Source of the DNA: Planctomycetia bacterium
GTDB taxonomy: Bacteria > Planctomycetota > Planctomycetia > Gemmatales > Gemmataceae
Reading direction: 5' to 3'
NCBI GenBank assembly: GCA_005772955.1
Contig: SXID01000257.1
Coordinates: forward strand, 1-43,427
Length of the DNA stretch: 43,427 nt
Shown here piece after piece: positions 7,493 through 39,226 of the stretch (its first letter is position 1; each line of letters opens with the position of its first letter). Position numbers and translations under genes: made by a program. A model generated the notes under the pieces. It saw only the letters and a list, made by a program, of their open reading frames with translations, did no database searches and was not told where the DNA came from.

Positions 7493-9253
7493 ATGTCCGA
7501 GCGATACCGAGATTACGCCATCCTCGTGGCCGTGTGCGCCGCACTCACTCTGCCGAACCTTGGCGCTTCGAGCCTGTGGGACGTGGACGAGGGCGTGAAC
7601 GCCGAGGCCGCGCGAGAGATGCGCGAGAACGACACGTGGGTGATCCCGACGTTCAACTACCAGTTGCGCACCGCCAAGCCGGTGATGCTGTACTGGATTC
7701 AGCGTGCCAGTTATTCCGTGTTCGGGGTGAGTGAGTGGTCCGCGCGGCTCCCGTCGGTACTCGCGGTCTGGTTCACCGTGCTACTCGTGTACGAGTTGGC
7801 GCGACGCATGTTCGACCGGTCCACCGGGTTGCTTGCGGGCGTGGTGCTGGTCTCGGCGCTGGAGGTGTGCGTTCTCGCGCACGCCGCCACACCCGACGCG
7901 ACTCTGTTGCTGTTCACGGTCCTCACGTACTACCTGTTCTGGACGCGGCACGAGAATGATTCGCGCAAGTGGTGGATCGCGACCGCGGCGGCGTGCGGCC
8001 TGGCGGTACTCACGAAGGGTCCGGTAGGGGTTGCGCTGCCGGGGTTGGTGATCCTGTTGTACTTTGCGTGGAACCGCGAACTCGGCCGGTTGCTCGACCG
8101 CAAGATACTGTGGGCGGCGATCGTGTTCCTGCTGGTCACTGGCCCGTGGTACGGGCTGGTGACAGCCGAGACGCGGGGCGCGTGGGCGAGCGCGTTCTTC
8201 GGGCGCGAAAATCTCCAGCGGTTTGCGACGCCGATGGAGAACCACCGCGGACCGTTCTTCTACCACGCGGCGGCGCTGCTGGTACTGTTCGCCCCATGGA
8301 GCGCGTTCCTGCTCGGCGCGATTTGGTATGGGGTCATGGGCGCGAGAAGAGAAGAACCTCTCCCCCCAACCCCCTCCCCTAAAAAGGGAGGGGGAGAAAG
8401 AACGGAAGAAGCACTAGCTTCTTCTCTGTCTCCCCCTCCCTTCTTAGGGGAGGGGGTTGGGGGGAGAGGTAGTCTTTCTCGCGCCCCCCGCGCGTTCCGA
8501 TTCCTGATCTGTTGGTTCGCCGCGTACCTCGTGTTCTTCTCGGTGGCGGCGACCAAGCTTCCGAACTACATGCTGCCGGTCTACCCGGCACTCGCGGTCC
8601 TCACCGCGCGGTTCCTGACGCGGTGGCGCGGCAGCGAACTCGTTCCCCCGCGATGGCTGATGCCCGCGGGGGTCGCGGCGCTGGTGTTCACGGCGGTCGC
8701 GGTCGGCGGCGGGTTGCTCGTCGTGGGCGACGCGGTGAAGGTACTTCCGACCGGTTCGCGGGTGTTCCCCGGCATCGCGCCGTGGGCCGTGATCGGCCTG
8801 GTGCCGCTCGCGGCGGCGATCGTAATGGTACGGGCGCTGCGGGCGAACGACCGACCGCGGTTCGTGCGAGCGATGGCGATCGGCGCGGTCGCGTTCACCG
8901 GGTTGGTGGCCGCGTTCCCGGCGCTGAAGGTGAACGCCTACAAGGCACCGAAGGAACTTGTACGCGTCAGCGGCGTGGACGACCCCACGCGCGACCTACG
9001 GCTCGCGCAGTTCGACTGGTTCCAGCCAAGCGTGGTGTTCTACGCTCGCCGCGAGGTGACAGAACTGAAGTCCGTGGAGCAGGCAACTGAGTTCTTCTCG
9101 GTGCCCACGCCCGGCTACCTGTTCGTCCCCGCGAGGACGTGGGAGCAGTTCGTGGAGGCGAAGGTCGCGGTGCCGACGCGGGTCGTCGCGAGGCACTACG
9201 ACTTCTACCGGAACTGCGAAATCGTCGTGGTCACCAACTCGCATAACGAGTAA
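7493..9253 (+). CDS. PMT/ArnT-like GT-C glycosyltransferase, polytopic
   Basis: The family moves sugars from lipid-linked donors onto protein or lipid on the outer side of the membrane. The N-terminus has a membrane segment followed by LWDVDEGVNAEAAREM, matching the first luminal loop with its acidic motif in PMT_2/ArnT-type enzymes, and PVMLYWIQRASYSVFGVSEW shortly after. About ten hydrophobic segments follow. The 586-aa length fits. ATG 7493 is chosen because GGAGGAAG lies six bases before it; the open frame extends further upstream into the terminator region, which is not plausible coding sequence. A palindromic element is translated within the gene (residues about 282-331), in a loop between membrane segments. 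The gene converges on glgC. The sugar and acceptor cannot be told. Confidence 0.8.
   Translation: MSERYRDYAILVAVCAALTLPNLGASSLWDVDEGVNAEAAREMRENDTWVIPTFNYQLRTAKPVMLYWIQRASYSVFGVSEWSARLPSVLAVWFTVLLVYELARRMFDRSTGLLAGVVLVSALEVCVLAHAATPDATLLLFTVLTYYLFWTRHENDSRKWWIATAAACGLAVLTKGPVGVALPGLVILLYFAWNRELGRLLDRKILWAAIVFLLVTGPWYGLVTAETRGAWASAFFGRENLQRFATPMENHRGPFFYHAAALLVLFAPWSAFLLGAIWYGVMGARREEPLPPTPSPKKGGGERTEEALASSLSPPPFLGEGVGGRGSLSRAPRAFRFLICWFAAYLVFFSVAATKLPNYMLPVYPALAVLTARFLTRWRGSELVPPRWLMPAGVAALVFTAVAVGGGLLVVGDAVKVLPTGSRVFPGIAPWAVIGLVPLAAAIVMVRALRANDRPRFVRAMAIGAVAFTGLVAAFPALKVNAYKAPKELVRVSGVDDPTRDLRLAQFDWFQPSVVFYARREVTELKSVEQATEFFSVPTPGYLFVPARTWEQFVEAKVAVPTRVVARHYDFYRNCEIVVVTNSHNE
8338..8486. repeat. 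Large palindromic element inside the glycosyltransferase gene
   Basis: Perfect 26-bp inverted arms lie at 8357-8382 and 8444-8469, with further 11-bp perfect outer arms at 8338-8348 and 8476-8486. Each half also folds on itself (CCCTCCCC against GGGAGGGG). It is translated in frame as a Pro/Gly/Lys-rich stretch (PLPPTPSPKKGGG on one side, LSPPPFLGEGVGGRGS on the other). A truncated copy of the same family is at 26264-26302. Confidence 0.92.
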
Positions 9254-9316
9254 CGAGTTGCGAGTTGCGAGTTAAGACAGAGACCAGAGGCACTCGTAAC
9301 TCGCAACTCGCAACTG
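9253..9316. repeat. Palindrome between convergent genes, probable bidirectional terminator
   Basis: A 19-bp perfect inverted repeat (9256-9274 and 9297-9315), built from GTTGCGA heptamers, begins at the stop codon of the glycosyltransferase gene and ends five bases before the glgC stop. It could end transcription from both sides, though no T-run follows. Confidence 0.8.
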
Positions 9317-12402: not shown

Positions 12403-12409
12403 GAGAAAG

Positions 12410-12545
12410 CGAAGAGCAGGATTAACCACGAAGGCACAAAGGACACAAAGAAGAGGAAGATCAGAGAGAGCAGTTCGCAAAGCTCTTCTCCTCTCTTCTG
12501 CTTTCTTTGTGTCCTTTGTGCCTTTGTGGTTAATCCTGCTCTTCG
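12410..12545. repeat. Long palindrome, CACAAAGGACACAAAG family (copy 1)
   Basis: Arms at 12410-12450 and 12505-12545 are 41 nt each and match at 40 positions. The inner part continues as an imperfect AAGAAG/CTTCTT palindrome. It fills the space between two convergent stop codons, starting 7 nt after the SOD stop and ending 2 nt before the DUF4337 stop. A relative with the same core sits at 18368-18494. Confidence 0.93.
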
Positions 12546-15825: not shown

Positions 15826-15829
15826 ACAG

Positions 15830-15911
15830 GGCGAGCGGGGGCGTAAGCCCCTGATTGCTCAACGACTCGATACGTACGCGAAACAATCAGGGGGCTTACG
15901 CCCCGCTCGCC
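15830..15911. repeat. Palindromic element, GCGAGCGGGGGCGTAAGCCCC family
   Basis: Arms at 15830-15856 and 15885-15911 (27 nt) are complementary apart from a one-base shift in the G runs. It starts four bases after the DUF1549 stop and ends 11 bases before the DUF1501 start. Relatives are at 37164-37285 (inside glnE) and a half copy at 10866-10885. Confidence 0.9.
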
Positions 15912-18362: not shown

Positions 18363-18367
18363 ACGAA

Positions 18368-18494
18368 AGAGGATTTCACCACAAAGACACAAAGGACACG
18401 AAGAAGAGAAGAGCAAGAGAAGTTCCGTTTTGAAGAACTGCATTCTCTTCGGTCTTCTTTGTGTTCTTTGTGCCTTTGTGGTGAAATCCTCTTC
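18368..18494. repeat. Long palindrome, CACAAAGGACACAAAG family (copy 2)
   Basis: Arms at 18368-18407 and 18455-18494 (40 nt, three mismatches) begin five bases after the WD40 stop. The core is the same as in the element at 12410-12545 (ACCACAAAGnCACAAAGGACAC), but the outer ends differ (AGGATTTCACC against AGGATTAACC). Confidence 0.92.
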
Positions 18495-26263: not shown

Positions 26264-26302
26264 TCATTTCCCCCAACCCACTCCCCTAAGAAGGGAGAAA
26301 GA
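26264..26302. repeat. Truncated copy of the CCCCCAACCCNCTCCCCTAA palindrome family
   Basis: The sequence matches about the left half of the element inside the glycosyltransferase gene (8338-8486), through CTCCCCTAA, AAGGGAG and AGAAAGAA. No right half is present, so it is a decayed or partial copy. Confidence 0.75.
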
Positions 26303-32227: not shown

Positions 32228-33754
32228 ATGACAGGTCAGAAAGTCTACATCGAAACTGTCGGCTGCCAGATGAACGTGCTCGACAGCGAGTTGGTCATCG
32301 GCGCGCTTCGTAAGCACGGCTACGATCTCACCGATTCACCCGCCGACGCGGACGTGCTGCTGTTCAACACCTGCTCGGTGCGCGAACACGCGGAGGACAA
32401 GACGTACTCCGCGCTCGGCCGCGTGCGACTCTTGAAACGCGACAAGCCGGGCACGGTTATCGGTGTACTGGGCTGCATGGCGCAGAAGGATCAGGATGCG
32501 ATCCGCAAACGTGCCCCTTACGTGGACATGATCGTCGGCACGGGGCAACTCGGTGCGGTGCCGGAACTGGTCGAGAAGGTGCGAGCCACGCGCGAGCCGC
32601 AACTTGCGGTGAGCCTCGGCCGCACCGATGGTGGGCGCAACGAAGTCGAAGCCAGCTTCATCAGCTACGACCCGGCACGCGACCCCTCAATGCGGCCGAC
32701 GCCGTTCCAGGCGTATGTGCGAATTCAAATCGGGTGCGACAAGTTCTGCACGTACTGCGTGGTTCCGAGCACGCGCGGCCCGGAGCAGAGCCGCCCGCCG
32801 GAACACATCTGGGGCGAAGTGCGCCAACTCGTCGATCAGGGCTGTAAGGAAGTCACGCTCCTCGGCCAAACGGTGAACAGCTACGTCTACACCGAAGGCG
32901 ACCGACGCACACGGCTCAGCGACCTCATCGCAGGGATGCACGACGTGCCGGGTTTGGAGCGCATCAAGTTCGTGACGAACTACCCGAAGGACATGACCGA
33001 CGACCTGCTCGACGCGGTGCGCGAACTCCCCAAAGTGGTGAAGTACCTGCACGTCCCGGTGCAATCCGGCTGCGACGGAATCCTCAAACGCATGAAGCGG
33101 AACTACACCGCGAGCTACTACATGGAGATGCTCAGCCGCTGTCGCGAGTTGGTGCCGGGCGTGTCGGTCAGTTCCGATTTCATCGTCGGCTTCTGTGGCG
33201 AAACCGAGGAGAGCTTCGCGAAGACGATGGAGTTAGTTCGCGTCGCGCAGTTCAAGAACTCGTTCATCTTCAAGTACAGCGAGCGCGGCGGCACGAAGGC
33301 CGCGGACCACTACCCGGACGACGTGCCCGACGACGTGAAGAAACGCCGCAACAATGACCTGCTCTTGGTACAGAACGAGAACAGCCGCACCGACCACCGC
33401 GCACAGGTGGGCAACGTGGTGGAAGTGTTGGTTGAAGGTCCGAGTCGCCGCGAGCGGAGCGCGTCGAACCAGGCAAACCGCGAGAGCGCGAGCCACGTCA
33501 CGCAACTCACCGGGCGCAGCATGGCGGACCACATCGTCGTGTTCGACGGCCCAGAGCGACTCATCGGCAACACGGTGCGCGTCGCGATCACCGACGCCTC
33601 GCCGTTCACGCTGTATGGCAACGTGCTAGTTGAAGCGGCGGTGGGTGTGGACGAGGCGAACCCCGACCGCAAAGTCGGGGGTGTTGGTGCGCAAAACACC
33701 TCCGACCTTGCGGTCGGGATTCGCCAGAATCGTTTCTCTCTTCCTCTCGTGTGA
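32228..33754 (+). CDS. miaB: tRNA-2-methylthio-N6-dimethylallyladenosine synthase
   Basis: This radical-SAM methylthiotransferase modifies A37 of tRNAs that read codons starting with U. The N-terminal UPF0004 domain holds the auxiliary cluster Cys residues C13 (ETVGCQMN), C49 (NTCSVREHA) and C83 (LGCMAQK). The radical-SAM cluster is C170, C174 and C177 (CDKFCTYC), followed by HVPVQSGCDGILKRMKRNYT and SSDFIVGFCGETEESF. A TRAM domain closes the protein (about 395-480). The family usually ends there; here the last about 30 residues derive from a palindromic element (33655-33725). ATG 32228 matches the family start; upstream frame extension has no family sequence. 508 aa is slightly long because of the added tail. 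Confidence 0.95.
   Translation: MTGQKVYIETVGCQMNVLDSELVIGALRKHGYDLTDSPADADVLLFNTCSVREHAEDKTYSALGRVRLLKRDKPGTVIGVLGCMAQKDQDAIRKRAPYVDMIVGTGQLGAVPELVEKVRATREPQLAVSLGRTDGGRNEVEASFISYDPARDPSMRPTPFQAYVRIQIGCDKFCTYCVVPSTRGPEQSRPPEHIWGEVRQLVDQGCKEVTLLGQTVNSYVYTEGDRRTRLSDLIAGMHDVPGLERIKFVTNYPKDMTDDLLDAVRELPKVVKYLHVPVQSGCDGILKRMKRNYTASYYMEMLSRCRELVPGVSVSSDFIVGFCGETEESFAKTMELVRVAQFKNSFIFKYSERGGTKAADHYPDDVPDDVKKRRNNDLLLVQNENSRTDHRAQVGNVVEVLVEGPSRRERSASNQANRESASHVTQLTGRSMADHIVVFDGPERLIGNTVRVAITDASPFTLYGNVLVEAAVGVDEANPDRKVGGVGAQNTSDLAVGIRQNRFSLPLV
33655..33725. repeat. Palindromic element translated as the C-terminus of MiaB
   Basis: Arms at 33655-33685 and 33695-33725 (31 nt, three mismatches) are read in the miaB frame as EANPDRKVGGVGAQNTSDL and AVGIRQ. 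The gene stops 29 nt later. Confidence 0.92.
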
Positions 33755-38700: not shown

Positions 38701-39038
38701 TGCTACAACTGAAGTACGGTCGCGAACACCCCGACGTGCTGACGCCGAACATGTGGGACGCACTCGACGCACTGGCCGTACGCGGGGTGTTGCCAATTGA
38801 TAACGCGACCGCATTGCGCGACGGCTATTCCTTCCTGCGTCTGGTTGAGACGCGGTTGCGGATCGTAACCGACCGACCGCTGACGGAGATCCCCGAACCG
38901 GCCGACGATCAGGCGAAACTCGCGCACCGGCTCGGGTTCGTGACGACCTCGGACTTCCTCGCCGCGTTCCGCCAGGCCACCGCGAGCGTGCGTGCGGCTT
39001 ACCTCGCGATCACCTCGCGCGAGCGATCTTCATCGTAG
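35760..39038 (+). CDS. glnE: Glutamine synthetase adenylyltransferase/deadenylase
   Basis: The bifunctional enzyme adds and removes AMP on glutamine synthetase in response to nitrogen status. It has two nucleotidyltransferase domains: N-terminal (about 140-460) with KLGGDELNYSSDIDLMFVYD and RGGIRDIEYTVQFLQLLNGG, and C-terminal (about 760-1085) with GLGKLGGREISYHSDLDLLLVYA, RLRPTGKSGSLVLPLSEFRRYF and GPGGLTDVEFAVQLLQLKYG. The GSDxD-like metal motifs are intact in both. At 1092 aa it is longer than the usual about 950-1000. The excess comes partly from two repeat-derived segments, at about residues 469-509 (37164-37285) and 788-806 (38121-38175). The stop codon lies within a third palindrome. 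Short -10-like box just before the start suggests a leaderless mRNA. Confidence 0.95.
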   Translation: MASHEDTILKAVRDADRGRRNLAALATHFGTVAPDLFAPLGRLLPRTADPDMALNNLERLFARPDARAHLPALLENRGRELEATLQLLATSQFFADTLTVYPEFLATVFHVSKRNPSTAELVAQLKSDVDAARDDAGVLRAFRRFRAQHTLRIGIGDVIRDRPLEEITRELARLADSSVEVALRHALRTVGARFGNPTAPAGQPAKITALAFGKLGGDELNYSSDIDLMFVYDVDGETNRRSGVNNAEFFGRAIGELVRLLSSYTDRGGAYRVDLRLRPEGNRGPLARSLASTLSYYDTMGRTWERQALIKLRHVGGDPSLARDFLQAIEPFVYRKYFSFSEINEVKALKRQMESKAARAQTQDADFPRDVKTGRGGIRDIEYTVQFLQLLNGGDLPAVRQRNTLLALDALEIAGCLNSPETYILADAYRFLRKTEHRLQLLFDLQTHKLPTEADELRKLARRMGYAEASGGRTLPDATPSSNEQDNHPGLSPRSSQAEESAGVRPPLAAQKRSPLDESDPPPLDTRDLLIDPLDRFLKDLHDKTAIDRTILNHLLHQSFQGEDEQSEPEADLILDPDPDAETVRAVLGRYPFRDIPKAFANLLALARESVPFLSARRCRHFLASIAPPLLRAVAASPDPDAALTDLERVSASLGAKAVLWELFSISPPSLKLYVELCAGSPFLSALLVNNPGMVDELLDSLVLNQPRTADELHTELTELLRGATDPDPILHSFQDKEFLRVGVGDLLGKADVRITTAALSDVADTILNQVVELVEPEVQAKLGVPEPLTASPEAHAEALAKPRAAQPCPYVLLGLGKLGGREISYHSDLDLLLVYAADGTTSRGESNQLYFTELAQRVIKTASRMGPMGRLYEVDMRLRPTGKSGSLVLPLSEFRRYFAGGTCQLWERQSLSRARVVRGDVAFADEVMDAIRAAMLGPAWCPQLVDEVRAMRQKLESTASVRSLKRGPGGLTDVEFAVQLLQLKYGREHPDVLTPNMWDALDALAVRGVLPIDNATALRDGYSFLRLVETRLRIVTDRPLTEIPEPADDQAKLAHRLGFVTTSDFLAAFRQATASVRAAYLAITSRERSSS
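37164..37285. repeat. Palindromic element translated within glnE (copy of the CGGGGGGCGTACGC family)
   Basis: Arms at 37164-37189 and 37260-37285 (26 nt, three mismatches) enclose another CCCCCCGCTCG unit. It is read in frame as a Gly/Arg/Pro/Ser-rich segment of about 41 residues between the two catalytic halves. The same family is intergenic at 15830-15911. Confidence 0.9.
38121..38175. repeat. Palindromic element translated within glnE (copy of the CCGCTCGCGGCTTCGC family)
   Basis: Arms at 38121-38136 and 38160-38175 (16 nt, one mismatch). It encodes PLTASPEAHAEALAKPRA just before the second catalytic motif. The same family follows the DUF1501 stop at 17186-17234. Confidence 0.9.
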
Positions 39039-39137
39039 TCATCACGCTCCGCGTGATGTCCGCGGGGCGATGCCGTTTTTCCGCGAAGGTCACTTGCGCT
39101 GCGAGGCGACATCACGCGGAGCGTGATGACTACGATA
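39033..39137. repeat. Palindromic element containing the glnE stop codon (GCTCCGCG family, copy 2)
   Basis: Arms at 39033-39061 and 39109-39137 are a perfect 29-nt inverted repeat. The TAG of glnE (39036-39038) lies in the left arm. Relative of 4802-4897. Confidence 0.95.
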
Positions 39138-39226
39138 AAACCCCGCACGTTCGCCCGGATTCCCCAGGTTCTCAGGGCCGCGACGGGGATTCTAAAATCC
39201 GCGAAACCGGCCGGCGTCCGGTCGGG

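Follow-up and report, generated by a model that had tools for sequence, protein, structure and literature searches.

Rickettsia palindromic elements (RPEs) are palindromes that are found in frame within genes (reviewed in PMC10969869), and in-frame inserts described as WPE-like are seen as well with Wolbachia (PMC4224334). REPs also can be intragenic, with different REPs found at about the same recB site in two Xanthomonas species (PMC3733652). RAYTs have been described as always flanked by two inverted REPs (PMC2817692), and CGTC repeats apparently exist without a dedicated transposase (PMC3733652). C-rich palindromes like those considered here are widespread, and they are not known to have a mover. 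Caulobacter VsrA, which is a DUF559 protein, causes an SOS response if a methylase is missing, and for it a part in the repair of mismatches at methylated sites has been proposed (PMC12907096). The relevant sections of PMC12907096 contain no link between VsrA and palindromic repeats, nor was a paper linking DUF559 to palindromic repeats found in the open-access literature as searched by titles and abstract openings, a search which does not show that such a link is absent from print.

We consider here a palindrome from what we term the window, i.e., the whole 43,427-nucleotide stretch of planctomycete DNA that was analysed. Like RPEs and WPEs, this palindrome belongs to a family of dispersed, roughly 150-bp palindromes found in frame in unrelated genes, with several families existing, though this is a likeness that does not involve sequence comparison. 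Differences are that the host here is of another phylum, that the palindromes are C-rich hairpin doublets, that the encoded peptides are of PLPPTPSPKKGGG type, and that such hairpins lie beside DUF559 genes. With REPs and REPINs are shared a small hairpin unit, inverted doublets, many copies, and some intragenic occurrence, and with RAYTs the placement of a partner gene between two inverted units, the candidate partner here being DUF559. Unlike with REPs and RAYTs, however, the unit consensus lacks a GTAG or CGTC tag, and the associated enzyme is a DUF559/Vsr-like nuclease rather than a tyrosine transposase, with no Y1_Tnp locus found to carry the unit. The likeness to MITEs is one of shortness, lack of an own transposase, and terminal inverted repeats, but here no target duplication was found and no known transposase with the same ends was identified.

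The palindrome, at 8338-8486, is real and far beyond chance. Its arms (8338-8408 and 8418-8488) are 71 nt long and 82% complementary without gaps. As RNA the segment folds at -133.1 kcal/mol, versus a mean of -65.4 kcal/mol (sd 4.4) for 200 dinucleotide shuffles, of which none was as good. Each half is itself a hairpin unit (see Table 1 for their cores), and the outermost 11 bp pair perfectly. The first-pass annotation, made from the sequence alone, had described a nested palindrome, halves that are themselves hairpins, a reading frame open across the whole element, perfect 11-bp outer arms, and a truncated copy of the same family near 26264. All of this held, the outer arms as pairing but not as family sequence, and the truncated copy as a partial copy, i.e., as a half-unit core. 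Beyond that annotation's view were the approximately 30 in-frame copies of which this is one, the outer arms not being family sequence, and the link to DUF559. As candidate ends of the element the outer arms can be ruled out: They are missing in the nearest orthologue (L060/L101) as well as in the consensus of 104 half-units. As a separate matter, and by reading only, G runs at 8447-8466 of the right half could form a G-quadruplex.

Table 1. Features of the locus and of a further partial copy, in window coordinates.
Feature	Position	Strand	Remarks
ArnT/PMT-like GT-C membrane glycosyltransferase ORF, 586 aa	7493..9253	+	Frame open through palindrome
Left outer 11-bp arm	8338..8348	+	Outside repeat-family consensus
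Left palindromic half-unit	8351..8396	+	Core 8364-8394, one mismatch from genome's commonest unit
Spacer between half-units	8397..8429	+	With small inner hairpin
Right palindromic half-unit, inverted	8430..8470	-	Core 8432-8462, exact match to genome's commonest unit
Right outer 11-bp arm	8476..8486	-	Outside repeat-family consensus
Single partial half-unit, same family	26271..26297	+	One mismatch over 27 nt of core

The gene within which the palindrome lies matches Pfam PMT_2 (2.8e-31) and PMT (9e-24), and the best PDB hits of a Foldseek search with the transferase model are to ArnT (5f15, 1.1e-16; 5ezm, 5.2e-16). That model was built from a 13-sequence alignment and has a mean pLDDT of 67.9. 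Residues 286-329, which is most of the insert, are modelled at a pLDDT below 50 and between helices 267-282 and 330-352. The insert, that is, is predicted by the model to be a disordered loop between two transferase helices. A different, heptamer-based palindrome (units of TAACGAG and CGAGTTG, then of ACTCGCA) is found at 9244-9315, and as it overlaps the end of the transferase gene, the stop codon of that gene lies inside of it.

A genome search for the half-unit core, allowing up to three mismatches, yields 80 matches, versus none for a reversed-pattern control. The consensus from 104 half-units is AAGAACCTCTCCCCCCAACCCCCTCCCCTAAGAAGGGAGGGGGAG, starting at about AAGAACCTCTCC, which in the window is at about 8352. 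With 45 inverted doublets of the half-unit present in the genome, the family consists of dispersed palindromes that are made up of two inverted, approximately 45-nt, C-rich hairpin units. Around those 45 doublets flanking direct repeats are not in excess, for k of 2-9 and 18 offsets, which is the outcome of the target-duplication check that had been suggested for this locus. Neither a GTAG nor a CGTC tag is present at the hairpin foot in the consensus of the genome's 104 half-units. In some relatives' variants the outer ends read GGTAGGT, by eye not at the stem foot.

The window's copy is not alone in lying within a gene: About 30 copies in the genome, itself included, are in frame. This follows from a census of 58 distinct sites in the same genome, of which 40 came from a first search, with those 40 scored out of 143 first-look candidates, and 18 from a search with the half-unit core. 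At 30 sites, representing 28 ORFs, the reading frame continues uninterrupted across the element and there is coding signal to either side (31 sites given unrounded cut-offs). The other sites include two candidate gene breaks, 22 with coding on one side or on the other strand, and three with no coding signal. Of 1179 random segments taken from these loci, 722 are in-frame coding, i.e., 61% versus about 53% for elements, so there is no enrichment in genes. Copies, that is, occur in genes at about the rate expected by chance, yet they almost always are in frame. The elements are RPE/WPE-like both in being a many-copy, dispersed palindrome and in their large in-frame share (30-31 of 58), though translation has not been shown. 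The in-frame habit is of a known kind but is seen here in a new group, that is, in a bacterium outside of the Rickettsiales where 28 predicted genes, including some for conserved enzymes, contain in-frame palindromes.

Of the 27 further ORFs with elements, 23 have Pfam matches. For 17 of the 27, matches of known position extend across the insert or sit on either side of it, and two more have a second matching stretch whose position was not given. Host ORFs include those for chorismate synthase, UvrA, and Lnt, with chorismate synthase the clearest case: Alignment to 5z9a covers residues 9-274 and 326-406, and the element occupies 277-322. Two of the three reading phases are in use, giving rise to PLPPTPSPKKGGG and LSPQPPPLRREGE types of peptide, and the third phase contains a TAA within the commonest unit. 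A related one-contig genome, G063, has another variant, for which 20 sites were sampled and 7 proved to be in frame. Unit spacings in G063 look like multiples of three, but with 7 of 20 sampled sites in frame these spacings were dropped as a coding signal.

The same loop can be followed across orthologues. Loop DNA was obtained from 82 loci, of which L060-L063 were dropped as duplicates of G074, G069, G065, and G056, leaving 78; L143 was without flanks. Among the closest orthologues that come from named records, two carry the label Gemmata. Loops span 15-282 nt, with 37 of the 78 at 15-54 nt, and loop length is a multiple of three in 75 of 78, the exceptions being G062, G064, and G094. Two of these, L150 (G062) and L152 (G064), have a frameshift or stop that interrupts the transferase gene, though sequencing error is not excluded. 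C-rich units of the window's kind, in varied variants, are seen by eye in 12 of the 78 loops, i.e., those of G000, G074, G063, G069, G076, G071, G043, G062, G064, G070, G068, and, from another genus, G093. The loop of L105 (G071) has in addition a ACCGTCAGGGAGCGGGTG-type palindrome nested within its C-rich doublet.

Ten other loops were joined as one query and searched against their ten genomes, with 40 candidates scored in each genome. Eight of the ten match elsewhere in their own genome (G065, G073, G032, G036, G045, G084, G057, and G067), with G065 having only one other matching place; for G041 and G066, self-matches only were found among the 40 candidates that were scored. Inspection by eye shows short tandem units making up the loops of G065, G073, G036, G045, and G067. 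It shows C/T-rich palindromes, though of other sequence, in G032 and G084, and another palindrome in G057. A palindrome scan finds above-threshold instances in 15 of 78 orthologues in windows overlapping the loop, versus 3 of 78 at other places of the scanned gene, and two of the latter three are also among the 15. For L142 and L122 the loop window extends upstream, and part of the palindrome may therefore be outside of the loop. In L120 (G093) and L122 (G094) the gene has a palindrome at a second site as well, its windows beginning 450-600 nt upstream of the main loop.

Do loops resemble the dispersed repeats of their own genomes? In 10 of the 11 C-rich loops of the genus the hairpin tip is, by eye, of one of three types, each of which is dispersed as well in that same genome. 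Across 19 genomes of the genus, however, TAA[A/G]AA tips are found in 10, TGAAGG in 12, and TGGGAA in 3. As the two common types are present in 10 and 12 of 19 genomes, a match in tip is weak evidence. Only the rarer TGGGAA is telling, with that tip present in the transferase gene of one of its three genomes, G069, where the gene copy accounts for 2 of the 6 hits.

Identity of the loop to that of the window, counting gap columns, is 53-61% in seven relatives, versus 75-83% for the flanks; in G074 it is 84% for the loop and 85-88% for the flanks. This pattern could reflect a tolerant loop that has been hit repeatedly or, instead, an old insert that has been overwritten from other copies, and within the Gemmata clade the two are not separated. 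Outside of that clade, different repeats in the same loop are separate events. Given short loops without an insert, loops with C-rich units, and loops with other dispersed repeats, this is a tolerant, repeatedly hit site. One protein loop that is hit repeatedly by different repeats provides, in turn, a natural map of insertion tolerance in a membrane protein.

The orthologues bear as well on the inference, made prior to this comparison, that the segment is an insertion kept in frame within a loop, one which is either neutral or has a role. An insertion kept in frame is supported: Loops are short in 37 of 78 and others are long and palindromic, with 75 of 78 multiples of three, and alignment finds the segment to be absent from many orthologues. 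That all orthologues might retain the amino acids without the DNA palindrome, which would have refuted insertion, does not hold. Neutrality fits better than does a role, as relatives carry other palindrome variants or other repeats in the loop and the residues are predicted to be disordered, and a role for the peptide is unsupported.

The surprising part of the analysis is a link to DUF559. In mobA (L192; G000:C11:1700-5400) two elements enclose a DUF559 domain, with all in one frame, and the mobA of G074 (L202) has the same element-DUF559-element arrangement, also in frame. The mobA insert resembles DUF559/Vsr-like endonucleases in matching PF04480 (9e-33) and PDB 3hrl, an endonuclease-like protein (2.9e-15), but the role proposed for the DUF559 protein VsrA is in mismatch repair. 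DUF559 is found in 17 of 19 genus genomes, as 19 full-length copies, and at 1e-20 in 23 of 149 genomes of the phylum, with 29 loci besides those of the window's own genome. A plasmid set consists of 13 of 38 DUF559 records, for taxonomic spread, with Neisseria, E. coli, and Pseudomonas aeruginosa rows excluded. Eleven partial DUF559-like loci, nine without a located domain, were left unscored. At some loci DUF559 has such units on one or both sides, its activity being unknown.

Generic palindromes are not informative in this regard. They are found near DUF559 in 16 of 19 genus loci versus 2 of 19 distant zones, and in 12 of 29 phylum loci versus 3 of 29, but these counts were rejected as unspecific since 31% of random window intervals and 10 of 18 genus control gene flanks also have one. 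A first specific rule is satisfied, for the genus, at 18 of 19 loci within 350 bp. Its controls there are zero hits across 27,178 bp of distant zones, one of 18 control flanks, and none of 8 Y1_Tnp loci. For the phylum this rule, the stricter one, gives 13 of 29 loci, and the distant zones, 45,478 bp in all, contain 7 hits. A looser rule, i.e., C/T-armed hairpins within 300 bp, was written with knowledge of the genus and phylum flanks, which makes the phylum figure partly post hoc; DNA of the plasmid loci was unread before that rule was run. By the looser rule a hairpin is present at 18 of 19 genus, 24 of 29 phylum, and 10 of 13 plasmid loci, for 52 of 61 in total. Controls score 5 of 69 for flanks of the transferase (with ends set at fixed offsets from the loop and thus approximate), 3 of 61 for distant zones (0, 2, and 1 for genus, phylum, and plasmid), and 0 of 8 for Y1_Tnp loci. 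Fisher tests against the control flanks yield 2.5e-13, 2.2e-13, and 3.3e-7 for genus, phylum, and plasmid, respectively, with loci treated as independent. The genus copies nevertheless are not 19 independent events, as several share a neighbouring gene. The spatial association of hairpins with DUF559 is strong, with mechanism only inferred, there being no data on cutting or movement.

The looser rule misses L199 in the genus, L228, L230, L241, L244, and L252 in the phylum, and L253, L254, and L262 among plasmids. Plasmid matches are from Deinococcus and Proteobacteria, and all three misses are the three cyanobacterial loci. In L253 and L262 DUF559 lies among CCCC..GGGG hairpins that fall outside of the C/T-arm rule, and L254 has none. 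Left and right flanks are inverted copies of each other (score of at least 14) at 26 of 29 phylum loci versus 12% of mismatched pairs, at 6 of 13 plasmid loci versus 10%, and at only 7 of 19 genus loci versus 23%. Inverted symmetry around DUF559 in the genus indeed is weak, with 5 of 19 above the 95% level. On plasmids DUF559 occupies differing places among hpa genes in three Deinococcus species and lies between sufB and sufC in a Sphingomonas. Such varied positions look like movement, and may be that, but are not proof of it. Nor do hairpins and DUF559 strictly co-occur: Hairpins of the two common types number 40 in G068 and 57 in G075, neither of which has a full-length DUF559 (G075 being 68% complete); G066, G067, G071, and G073 have DUF559 but neither common hairpin type, with their DUF559 flanks mostly bearing other C/T-rich hairpins; and G016 and G056 have neither DUF559 nor the common types.

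Our main reading, to which we assign a probability of roughly 0.7, is that the segment is a REPIN- or MITE-like repeat, inserted in frame, serving as a near-neutral linker, and belonging to a family for which DUF559 is the inferred driver. The repeat family, the orthologue pattern, the in-frame state of about half of the copies surveyed, the loop having been hit more than once, its predicted disorder, and the DUF559 association are shown; translation and the mobilizer step are inferred. By this reading the segment would be a non-autonomous repeat consisting of two inverted, approximately 45-nt, C-rich hairpin units around a variable spacer. It would have inserted, in frame and without detectable target duplication, into a tolerant, disordered loop of an ArnT-like protein, and presumably is translated, though this has not been measured, as a linker of little or no effect. 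A DUF559 nuclease may cut or nick the hairpins and thereby drive their copying or conversion, which is inferred by analogy with what has been proposed for RAYTs and REPs. Doublets, it may further be inferred, would derive from hairpin-DUF559-hairpin units, and selection would have removed nearly all out-of-frame intragenic copies.

Other explanations can be offered. It could be that repeats are moved instead by a Y1 tyrosine transposase, RAYT or IS200-like, with DUF559 only a passenger or a repair enzyme. For this there is the precedent of REPs and RAYTs (PMC2817692), eight Y1_Tnp matches in the genome (six above the Pfam cut-off), and some palindrome in 6 of these 8 loci. Neither the C-rich unit nor a looser-rule hairpin is found at any of the 8 loci (2.0-3.3 kb each), however, versus 18 of 19 genus DUF559 loci. 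This makes the Y1 explanation unlikely, with the caveat that the Y1_Tnp scan was of this genome only (278 contigs), to the exclusion of relatives' Y1 genes. Less likely still is that the association with DUF559 is simply one of small genes situated within palindrome-collecting intergenic DNA. Generic palindromes in fact are frequent at gene flanks, but same-type hairpins are present near DUF559 at 52 of 61 loci, versus only 5 of 69 control flanks, 3 of 61 distant zones, and none of the 8 Y1_Tnp loci; a control using short orphan genes is lacking. A similarly low standing is given to the idea that the translated hairpin is functional in the transferase, e.g., by ribosome pausing at PPTPSP along with a stable mRNA stem between membrane segments. 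In its favor, different palindromes recur in the loop (15 of 78 overlapping it versus 3 of 78 elsewhere in the gene). Against it, most of the 78 orthologues lack an above-threshold palindrome at the loop, 37 loops are no longer than 54 nt, the G067 loop is a dispersed repeat below the palindrome threshold, the gene is interrupted in G062 and G064, and the same family is found in 28 ORFs of the genome.

The most serious of these alternatives, and one that remains possible, is that spread occurs by template switching or gene conversion between hairpins only, that is, without a dedicated enzyme, and that DUF559 genes are parasites settling in hairpins. The lack of a detected target duplication is consistent with this, and the lower identity of loops (53-61%) than of flanks (75-83%) in seven relatives fits replacement from other copies, though it fits separate insertions as well. 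On its own, however, template switching leaves unexplained the neighbourhood of DUF559 and hairpins in distant taxa.

A bolder version of the DUF559-driven reading is that C/T-rich palindromic repeats form a superfamily extending across phyla and that DUF559 nucleases are its dedicated partners, with hairpin-DUF559-hairpin as the autonomous form and dispersed doublets, which in this genome often lie in frame in genes, as short derivatives. Taken jointly, these claims seem to us as apt to be wrong as right. If true, then the DUF559-hairpin pair would represent a second enzyme-repeat system, one that is parallel to that of RAYT and REP. The presence of DUF559 beside such hairpins in Planctomycetota, and on Deinococcus and Proteobacteria plasmids, in any case makes it a testable candidate mover.

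Within the window, palindromes are not limited to those described above. A scan yields 13 in total, with further strong ones at 12409-12545, 15829-15911, 18366-18493, 33654-33725, and 39028-39139.
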